Source: Oscillospiraceae bacterium
Lineage (GTDB): Bacteria > Bacillota > Clostridia > Oscillospirales > Ruminococcaceae
Reading direction: 5' to 3'
NCBI GenBank assembly: GCA_017440545.1
Contig: JAFSGZ010000058.1
Span: 1 to 42,179, forward strand
DNA length: 42,179 bases
A model generated the notes under the pieces. The model saw only the letters and a list, made by a program, of their open reading frames with translations. It was not told the DNA's origin and searched no databases. A program made the translations under genes and the position numbers. Shown one piece after another: positions 3,113 through 5,054 of this stretch (its first letter is position 1; each line of letters opens with the position of its first letter).

Positions 3113-3196
3113 GCGAGTGTGCTGGAACTGGCAGACAGGCACGTTTGAGGGGCGTGTGTCTTTGGCGTACGGGTTCAAGTCCCGTCACTCGCACCA
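3113..3196 (+). tRNA. tRNA-Leu, anticodon GAG, CCA encoded
   Basis: The 84-nt class II tRNA has acceptor stem GCGAGTG/CACTCGC, anticodon stem CACGT/GCGTG around TTGAGGG (anticodon GAG, reading CUC and CUU), a long variable arm, the T-loop TTCAAGT and an encoded CCA. Confidence 0.95.
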
Positions 3197-3202
3197 AAAT
3201 AA

Positions 3203-3236
3203 CGGGTATCACTAATGTGATACCCGCTATTTTTTT
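3203..3236 (+). terminator. Intrinsic terminator of tRNA-Leu
   Basis: A perfect 10-bp stem CGGGTATCAC/GTGATACCCG with a TAAT loop is followed by a T-rich tract, starting 7 nt after the tRNA CCA end. Confidence 0.92.
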
Positions 3237-3282
3237 GCAAAAAAAGAAGACTTAAAACCTAAAAGGGTATTTGCTAAAAAGC

Positions 3283-3311
3283 TTGCATAATTTTCTCCTA
3301 CGTGTTATAAT
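3283..3311 (+). promoter_or_regulatory. Predicted promoter of the candidate structured RNA
   Basis: TTGCAT (3283-3288) and a perfect TATAAT (3306-3311) are separated by 17 nt. The expected start, about 3318, coincides with the first base pairs of the long inverted repeat downstream. Confidence 0.7.
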
Positions 3312-3317
3312 AATTAT

Positions 3318-3483
3318 GCGACACAACTTAATATTTGGACAAACTATGGGAGAAGTGTTTTTATTTTTACAAAAAACACATTCTCTATTTTGGCTTTCTC
3401 TTGTAGTTTGTCAAAGGTTGTGTCGCAGCAAACGGAGTTATGTGTTTTTTAGTGCGTGGCTTCGGCTGCGCACTTTTTATTTT
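3318..3483 (+). ncRNA. Candidate structured small RNA or 5' leader with long irregular hairpin
   Basis: From the predicted start the sequence folds back on itself over 3317-3427 in three nested blocks. The outer stem is TGCGACACAAC (3317-3327) with GTTGTGTCGCA (3417-3427), 11 bp perfect. The middle stem is GACAAACTA with TAGTTTGTC, 9 bp. The inner stem is GAGAAGTGTTTTT with AAAAACACATTCTC, with one bulged base. A linker leads to a strong UUCG-loop terminator. The whole unit is about 165 nt, with its own promoter and terminator. It lacks the conserved apical motif of signal recognition particle RNA and the T-box, and I do not recognise it as 6S RNA. A long imperfect palindrome could also be a MITE-type repeat, although I see no target-site duplication. 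The terminator sits right before the ribosome binding site of the lipoprotein gene, so it could be a regulatory leader. Confidence 0.5.
3451..3483 (+). terminator. UUCG-tetraloop terminator just upstream of the lipoprotein ribosome binding site
   Basis: The 10-bp stem AGTGCGTGGC/GCTGCGCACT contains two G-T wobbles and is closed by C-G around TTCG, followed by TTTTTATTTT. The GGAGG of the next gene begins only a few bases later (3486), which is a position expected for an attenuator or for a simple sRNA terminator with read-through. Confidence 0.85.
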
Positions 3484-3497
3484 ACGGAGGAAATATC

Positions 3498-4373
3498 ATG
3501 AAAAAAATCCATTCTTTAGCATTAGCTATAATTTTACTTTTTTGTTTTATATTATGCTCTTGCGAATCTGACAATTTAAACACTCAATCTGATAAACTCG
3601 AAAATCCTTCCAATGAAACACAAATTCAAAGCAATATTAACAGTCAAATACAATCCCACAATGAGCAAAATCAAGTTGACATTAATAACGATAATCATGT
3701 AGACAAGGCTGAAAGTAAATCCCACATACATAATTACACTCCTGTTAAGACAAATGCAACATGTAAAAATCAAGGGTACACTACTTATATTTGTTCTTGC
3801 GGCCATACATATAATGATGAATTTATAAACGGTACACACCAATTTGAAAACAATAAGTGTATTTATTGTGGCAAAGCTAATATTGAAGAACTTTTTAACT
3901 TCCTAAAAAAATGGGTTGCTGATAATGGAACTGTGTATGGTGATTATGTATACTATTCAAAAGATGCAGAAAATTATGGTGGATATAGTGGTGAAAGCTT
4001 TAGTTTATATTATTGGCCAGACAATAATAAAGTGGAATTTTGCTTACATTCTGTTTTAGATGAAGAATGTAGTATAAACTTTTACATTTATATCCCCGAA
4101 AAATATTCAGGCAATTACGAATATATATCATCATATTATTATAGAGATACAGGAAAAAGCATTTACGAAAGTAAAGGTCATATTGATGCAAAATCTTTTA
4201 CAAAAAAACAACCACTTAACTCAAAAGAATATATCGGTTCTCCCACAAAGCAAAACGATTTTATGGAAATGAGTCGAAAAGGTATATGTGATGCCTTAGA
4301 CTGTTTAAAACAGTTTTTACAAGTTGAAAAAATGGGTTATACTCTTTTAGATTTAGGATTTGAAAATTACTAA
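3498..4373 (+). CDS. Predicted lipoprotein with a Cys-rich (CSCG) motif
   Basis: The ATG at 3498 follows GGAGG (3486-3490). A GTG at 3456 is in frame but lies inside the terminator stem and has no ribosome binding site. The 291-residue product has a type II signal peptide with lipobox LCSC (Cys22). An Asn/Gln/Ser-rich linker follows to about residue 75. Next comes a Cys/His-rich segment (TCKNQGYTTYICSCGHTY, then CIYCG; Cys 89, 99, 101, 121, 124), a repeat type common in surface proteins of gut Clostridia. The C-terminal 160 residues are rich in aromatic residues and not recognised. It is probably anchored to the outer face of the membrane; no function is assigned. It has no promoter of its own downstream of the terminator at 3451-3483. 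Confidence 0.8.
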   Translation: MKKIHSLALAIILLFCFILCSCESDNLNTQSDKLENPSNETQIQSNINSQIQSHNEQNQVDINNDNHVDKAESKSHIHNYTPVKTNATCKNQGYTTYICSCGHTYNDEFINGTHQFENNKCIYCGKANIEELFNFLKKWVADNGTVYGDYVYYSKDAENYGGYSGESFSLYYWPDNNKVEFCLHSVLDEECSINFYIYIPEKYSGNYEYISSYYYRDTGKSIYESKGHIDAKSFTKKQPLNSKEYIGSPTKQNDFMEMSRKGICDALDCLKQFLQVEKMGYTLLDLGFENY

Positions 4374-4381
4374 TAATGTAT

Positions 4382-4410
4382 AAAAAGGCTGTCGTATAGA
4401 CAGCCTTTTT
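4382..4410. terminator. Bidirectional terminator between the lipoprotein gene and rex
   Basis: The 12-bp stem AAAAAGGCTGTC/GACAGCCTTTTT with a 5-nt loop has A- and T-tracts on both sides. It serves the plus-strand lipoprotein gene and the minus-strand dlt-asnS-rex unit. Confidence 0.92.
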
Positions 4411-4415
4411 ATTGT

Positions 4416-5054
4416 TTATATATCTTTTGAAAGGTATCTTAATATCATAAGACTATCGTTCATATGAACGTTTTCAACGACAATGTCGTTATCCTTATAT
4501 TCCATTAAGATGTCGAAATGGGTAAAGTTCCAAAAAACCTTAATACCTGAATTAATGAGAGTTTCAACAACTTCTCTCGCAGCGCTATCAGGAACGCAGA
4601 CAATAGCCGCTTTTACGTCATTATTTTGACAGTATTCCTCGACAGTTTTAAAATCTAAAACCTCTACTCCCTGATATTTTTTTCCGAAAGCATCGGGGTT
4701 GCTGTCAAAGATAGCAGACAAATTAAATCCTTCGGACTCAAAATTCATCTTATTAGCAATCGCTCTACCCATATTACCAACACCGACAAGAATAGTATTG
4801 ATTTTTTTATTCAGGCCTAAAATATCACCTATTTTTTCTCTTAAAAGGGCGATGTTGTAACCATAGCCTTGTTGGCCAAAGCCACCAAAACAGTTAAAAT
4901 CCTGCCTTATTTGAGAAGCCGTGAGCCCCATTTTTCTTGAAAGTTCGGCTGACGATATACGCTCTCTACCCTCTTCTAATTGGTAGCTTAAAAAGCGATA
5001 ATATCTTGGAAGTCTTCTTATAACGGGAAGAGCAACATCTTGTTTTTTAGACAT
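4416..5054 (-). CDS. rex: Redox-sensing transcriptional repressor Rex
   Basis: This 212-residue protein matches Rex in length and layout. The N-terminal winged helix (about 1-75) includes SSAELSRKMGLTASQIRQDF, and a Rossmann domain follows with GVGNMG at 91-96 and an acidic residue after the second strand (FDSNPD). Rex senses the NADH/NAD+ ratio; NADH releases it from operators upstream of fermentation and reductase genes. The ATG follows GAGGATGG. The gene starts 29 nt after the asnS stop with no terminator between, so it is probably the last gene of the dlt-asnS operon. A Rex-box-like palindrome at the head of that operon suggests autoregulation. Confidence 0.96.
   Translation of the reverse strand: MSKKQDVALPVIRRLPRYYRFLSYQLEEGRERISSAELSRKMGLTASQIRQDFNCFGGFGQQGYGYNIALLREKIGDILGLNKKINTILVGVGNMGRAIANKMNFESEGFNLSAIFDSNPDAFGKKYQGVEVLDFKTVEEYCQNNDVKAAIVCVPDSAAREVVETLINSGIKVFWNFTHFDILMEYKDNDIVVENVHMNDSLMILRYLSKDI

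Follow-up and report, generated by a model that had tools for sequence, protein, structure and literature searches.

A putative family of pseudoknot-coupled transcription attenuators preceding genes for surface and secreted proteins in Clostridia

Several classes of RNA regulate bacterial genes from within the leader of an mRNA. In the ribosome-mediated attenuators of the trp type, successive helices that exclude one another (1-2, 2-3 and 3-4) form a chain in front of an intrinsic terminator, and T-box leaders of the Firmicutes choose between a terminator and an antiterminator. Transcription-terminating riboswitches, e.g. the c-di-GMP classes, can be present in many copies per genome and control surface and secreted genes, and the antiterminator proteins of the BglG/LicT, ANTAR and LoaP classes all act on leader hairpins. 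6S RNA is a long irregular hairpin with its own promoter. The Clostridiales-1 and Gut-1 RNAs (Weinberg et al. 2010, PMC2864571) are candidate RNAs of gut Clostridia and are included in Rfam.

The element described here lies in a 42,179-nt contig of an Oscillospiraceae bacterium (JAFSGZ010000058.1), the whole of which is referred to as the window. Its parts are of a known kind, those of a terminator/antiterminator leader, and comparative sequence analysis indicates that it is very probably the 5' leader of a lipoprotein-gene mRNA, transcribed from a sigma-A-type promoter of its own and functioning as a transcription attenuator. The element shares with the trp-type attenuators the helix chain in front of an intrinsic terminator but conserves neither a leader peptide nor a start codon; furthermore, its switch strand lies within a long hairpin, its helix 2-3 is a predicted pseudoknot relative to the outer stem (P1), and a single family fronts many unrelated genes. 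Like the multi-copy terminating riboswitches, it combines a conserved RNA containing conserved unpaired bases with a predicted expression platform and occurs in many copies before surface and secreted genes, whereas it has no riboswitch match in Rfam and is mostly one long rod with a variable inner stem (P2). It resembles T-box leaders as a Firmicutes leader that would select a terminator or an antiterminator, but the genes behind it are not amino-acid genes and Rfam yields no T-box match, in agreement with an initial annotation of the sequence, which had reported the T-box to be absent. The same annotation had considered the hairpin too short for standard 6S RNA. Although the size, irregular hairpin and separate promoter are similar, no match to 6S RNA (RF00013) was obtained at the element and this candidate was dropped; a better one, a 6S-like locus on another contig (G000:C73:3199-3392, L020; 39.5 bits, E 7e-7, below the Rfam cut-off), is probably the divergent 6S RNA of the window's genome. 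Neither the Clostridiales-1 nor the Gut-1 RNA matches the element.

Rfam 15 gave no match at window positions 3200-3520 at either gathering or permissive thresholds, the best score being 21.3 bits and far below the cut-off, and none of 20 homologous loci gave a match above the cut-off in the region of the element, which bears out the initial statement that no known RNA family could be recognised. Weak sub-threshold matches to Gut-1 were located elsewhere in two loci. The motif is not described in the literature searched, in which the 224 candidate RNAs published in 2017 were covered as far as Rfam contains them. As judged from sequence comparison, the element represents an uncatalogued attenuator or orphan-riboswitch-like family, absent from Rfam 15 and from this literature. 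The features not found in either source are the RNA family itself, the predicted pseudoknot-coupled design without a leader peptide, and the many-copy use before exported-protein genes.

In the window (all coordinates refer to the forward strand), the promoter-leader-terminator unit occupies positions 3316-3479, and the start of the lipoprotein gene lies 18 nt further on. The promoter (3283-3311), which had been proposed in the initial annotation, consists of TTGCAT (3283-3288), a 17-nt spacer and TATAAT (3306-3311); it was identified by direct reading of the sequence, is absent from the list of a generic consensus promoter scan, and is conserved with equal spacing among 149 homologues. In the region upstream of it (3113-3226), ARAGORN identified a tRNA-Leu (GAG) gene, which Rfam missed at the gathering score, and a terminator-like hairpin (3203-3226) is present between this gene and the element. 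The 111-nt irregular hairpin noted initially (3317-3427) is well supported by fold computation, with -42.7 kcal/mol and a z-score of -9.2, and none of 200 shuffled sequences folded equally well; the z-score for the full 167 nt is -7.9. The helix lengths first given (11, 9 and 13 bp) are approximate, because the predicted fold comprises outer, middle and apical helices of 13, 17 and 8 bp, with a bulge of 16 nt in the 3' strand.

P1 is formed by UGCGACACAACUU (3317-3329), at the first bases of which transcription would begin, and AGGUUGUGUCGCA (3415-3427); over 103 homologues, 99.6% of its positions are paired, with compensatory changes. It is followed by an unpaired AAUA (3330-3333), a 4-mer ending in AUA being conserved near this position in 109 of 117 homologues. 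The two arms of P2, the 5' one variable in sequence, were assigned from the fold to 3338-3355 and approximately 3394-3412. The apical hairpin consists of segment 1 (GUGUUUUU, 3355-3362) and segment 2 (AAAAAACACAUUCUC, 3371-3385); its loop is UUUUUAC in the window, unlike the consensus UUUYGG of most copies. Segment 2, which is common to helices 1-2 and 2-3, is followed by a 3' bulge or linker (UAUUUUGG, 3386-3393) that is U-rich in the homologues. Downstream of P1 are a GCA (3428-3430), which would form the outer part of the antiterminator with UGC (3467-3469) in the 3' arm of the terminator, and segment 3 (GGAGUUAUGUGUUUUUU, 3434-3450; positions 3435-3450 are GAGUUAUGUGUUUUUU), the predicted partner of either segment 2 (pseudoknot) or segment 4 (antiterminator). 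The consensus of segment 3 among the homologues is GGAGUUAUGYGUUUUU. Segment 4 (3451-3460) is the 5' arm of the terminator and, alternatively, the 3' arm of the antiterminator (about 3453-3464), and segment 5 (3465-3479) provides the 3' arm of the terminator and the U tract. The UUCG-loop terminator proposed initially (3451-3474) was confirmed, with a 10-bp stem, the loop at 3461-3464 and a T tract, and the ribosome binding site expected close behind it is present as GGAGG (3486-3490). The downstream gene (3498-4373, beginning with ATG at 3498) encodes a 291-aa lipoprotein-like protein with no Pfam family above the cut-off.

Only one strong copy of the element was found in the 1.2-Mb genome assembly to which the window belongs; such a count had been suggested as a check on the hairpin, and the outcome argues against a mobile repeat. 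A BLAST search of 61 relatives already detected copies in other families of the order. Using a covariance model built from eight sequences, we found the element in at least 142 of 394 genomes of the order, representing at least 74 of 169 genera, and in at least 78 of 291 genomes sampled from the whole class; as only 7-11 candidates were scored per genome, all of these are minimum figures. Among 249 genomes drawn across the phylum, the sole match among the candidates scored was that in the window's own genome. Seven element-rich genomes contain 7-13 matches each. In addition, at least 119 stretches in public genomes match a simple DNA pattern of the element, and nearly all of the matches listed are titled Oscillospiraceae, Ruminococcaceae or Clostridia metagenome assemblies. 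Most of the genomes are metagenome assemblies, the organism names were taken from record titles, and the E-values of the model are rough.

Comparison of the homologues revealed a chain of helices in 103-117 copies, each of which excludes its neighbour: the apical hairpin (1-2), the pseudoknot with the outer stem (2-3), the antiterminator (3-4) and the terminator (4-5). When duplex energies of matched segments were compared with those of shuffled partners in 117 copies, z-scores of -18 (1-2; -12.5 matched versus -9.0 kcal/mol shuffled), -24 (2-3), -9.5 (3-4) and -21 (4-5) were obtained, whereas the control pairings 1-3, 1-4, 2-4, 2-5 and 3-5 were unsupported (z-scores from +2.5 to -1.9). To avoid bias, segment 2 was defined from the 1-2 pairing alone. 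In an alignment of 103 sequences, P1, the pseudoknot and the terminator together were 98.4% paired, with 221 double-change cells versus 40.5 after shuffling, and this signal collapsed once the pairing was slid. The pseudoknot alone accounted for 79 double-change cells (13.6 shuffled) and the antiterminator, the weakest of the four helices, for 34 (17.5 shuffled). The shuffle tests leave part of the relatedness of the sequences in, which disjoint contrasts and slid controls remove in part; in 51 disjoint nearest-neighbour contrasts, helix 2-3 showed 33 compensatory double changes, and one or none when slid by one column. Covarying pairs, which the initial annotation had named as a check, are present as compensatory changes in P1, helix 2-3 and the terminator. 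All four helices and their mutual exclusion are supported by co-variation in the aligned sequences, and the five control pairings are not. A mutually exclusive terminator and antiterminator kept by co-variation are what is generally expected of a transcription attenuator.

By computation, the two states differ little in energy. In 112 of 117 copies, the tail folded without segment 2 has a minimum-energy structure other than the terminator state (on average -20.0 kcal/mol, versus -16.7 kcal/mol for the terminator state), and in the copies inspected, including that of the window, this structure is the antiterminator; the differences in energy are modest. Helices that exclude one another along a chain have the logic of a transcription attenuator, and because the pairings exclude each other, two states can be proposed. 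Segment 2 would pair with segment 1 while segment 3 pairs with segment 4, allowing read-through (ON), or it would pair with segment 3, leaving segment 4 to pair with segment 5, resulting in termination (OFF). Since helix 2-3 crosses P1, it would be a pseudoknot, and the U-rich 3' bulge could be the linker that this pseudoknot requires. The ON state would be the default.

A second general feature of attenuators, a gene directly behind the terminator without a separate promoter, was also found. Sequences matching TATAAT with two or fewer mismatches precede the element in all 149 homologues (shuffled mean, 104), ending exactly 4 nt before it in 124; an extended TG is present in 127 and a TTGACA-like sequence, again with two or fewer mismatches, in 101 (shuffled mean, 30). 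An ORF was in range of 150 unique copies, and in 94 of these the best start codon is located 14-25 nt past the terminator, compared with 8 of 133 on the divergent side and 11 of 139 at a position 60 nt further on. A separate promoter does not fit into this distance, and transcription of the gene must come from upstream, which argues for a leader rather than a standalone sRNA. Both had been offered in the initial annotation; the attenuator-type leader is the one supported by the conserved, mutually exclusive helices and the near-fixed distance to the gene, and the standalone RNA has become the less likely of the two. In the latter case, a trans-acting sRNA would merely precede genes, and the terminator would simply end it. 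The element's own promoter and strong terminator would suit such an RNA, as would the tandem arrays in which three to four complete units follow one another with no intervening gene. An ORF start within 40 nt is absent in about a quarter of the copies, and some, such as L009 and L080, have no nearby ORF; together with the arrays, this could mean that the short RNA has a role of its own. However, besides the close spacing in most copies, the marked bias of the downstream genes towards one class and the conservation of antiterminator and anti-antiterminator pairings, for which an sRNA would have no need, render this explanation improbable.

No conserved upstream ORF or leader peptide was detected: there is no conserved start position, and a Shine-Dalgarno sequence with a start codon occurs in only 35 of 149 leaders. 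A GGAG-NN-NUG in segment 3 resembled a start site; this reading was dropped, as the first base can be any of A, G, U and C and pairing accounts for the stretch.

The downstream genes vary even at the genus level, where copies precede a gene for a small membrane protein (L010), no close ORF (L009) or the lipoprotein gene of the window. Export signals were predicted in 79 of 111 downstream proteins (71%) versus 108 of 625 ORFs of the same loci (17%). These calls were made with a simple rule that recognises lipoboxes and N-terminal signals, and the minimum lengths differed between the two sets (35 and 90 aa). BspA-type leucine-rich repeats (LRR_5) were found in 23 of the 106 downstream proteins scanned, and Peptidase_M23, SLH, zinc ribbon, HTH and further domains in others. 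Judging from these predictions, the copies front mostly genes for cell-surface and secreted proteins in many gut Clostridia.

Another explanation, slightly less probable still than the sRNA, is a fixed 5' element composed of a stabilising hairpin and a leaky terminator, which would set a constant level or a stochastic ON/OFF choice without sensing. The closeness of the two states in computed energy is consistent with it, and no regulator family was found among the three classes checked (BglG, ANTAR and LoaP). On the other hand, three features that the model leaves unpaired, namely the AUA beside P1, the GG in the apical loop and the U-rich bulge, are conserved, which suggests that something binds there, and two alternative folds are unlikely to be kept over many families without regulation. 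Control by a known antiterminator protein of the BglG/LicT, ANTAR or LoaP type is very improbable. ANTAR proteins occur in 10 of 24 element-rich genomes but are missing from the other 14 (14 control genomes gave no matches), the CAT_RBD domain of BglG/LicT was found in none of the 24 whereas control genomes do give matches, and LoaP exceeded the curated cut-off in none, its sub-threshold matches probably reflecting NusG. A common regulator from any of these three classes is largely refuted; a protein of a new class may act instead. A MITE-like mobile palindrome, the main alternative in the initial annotation, is hardly credible: the long inverted repeat with conserved ends and the many copies in some genomes would fit, but the window's genome has one copy, divergence is compensatory (including in P1 and the terminator) and not clonal, and the order promoter-RNA-terminator-gene is fixed in most copies.

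Returning to a regulated attenuator, a signal acting on the conserved unpaired bases (the AUA, the apical UUUYGG loop and the U-rich bulge) may favour or block helix 2-3, and the AUA, the GG of the loop and the bulge are candidate binding sites. We favour a directly sensed ligand or an RNA-binding factor as the trigger. A directly bound small molecule appears the leading candidate, at somewhat less than an even chance; a putative RNA-binding protein is a rather weaker one, and another RNA or transcription kinetics seems unlikely. The many copies before exported-protein genes suggest a cell-wide signal that sets the complement of surface and secreted proteins. It is tentatively proposed, with a little less than even confidence, that the family is a new signal-sensing RNA class (an orphan riboswitch or the target of an RNA-binding regulator) in which a pseudoknot-coupled attenuator co-ordinates a regulon throughout the Clostridia, comprising surface and secreted proteins together with some that are phage-borne. 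In gut Clostridia, the element would rank among the more widely distributed of the uncharacterised leader RNAs, reaching 13 copies in one genome, and would indicate that the surface and secreted proteins of these bacteria share a form of control so far unrecognised. The downstream genes, e.g. those for BspA-type leucine-rich repeat proteins, lipoproteins and peptidases, are of interest for host contact, and the helices are delineated precisely enough to be tested directly with mutations and ligands.

A derived form of the element is present on 17 IMG/VR viral contigs (L217, 472-633; L219, 7005-7168; L218, L221, L225 and others). Several of these copies are located upstream of related proteins of approximately 340 aa without an assigned function, and that of L221 is upstream of a PASTA-like protein. 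Two unannotated matches were found in phage records and none in plasmids.

Arrays of three to four whole promoter-leader-terminator units were identified in L200 (3365-4334), L206 (2251-2811), L201 (153-1074, reverse strand) and L202 (3382-5142, reverse strand). In L200, L206 and L201, there is no gene between the units and the last unit abuts a gene, which in L200 is an ORF with a PIN7 domain (4353-4730). L209 (1276-1661, reverse strand) contains a tandem pair with a short remnant of a Shine-Dalgarno sequence, ATG and ORF between the first copy and the next promoter, an arrangement suggestive of the duplication of a unit made up of a leader and a gene start.
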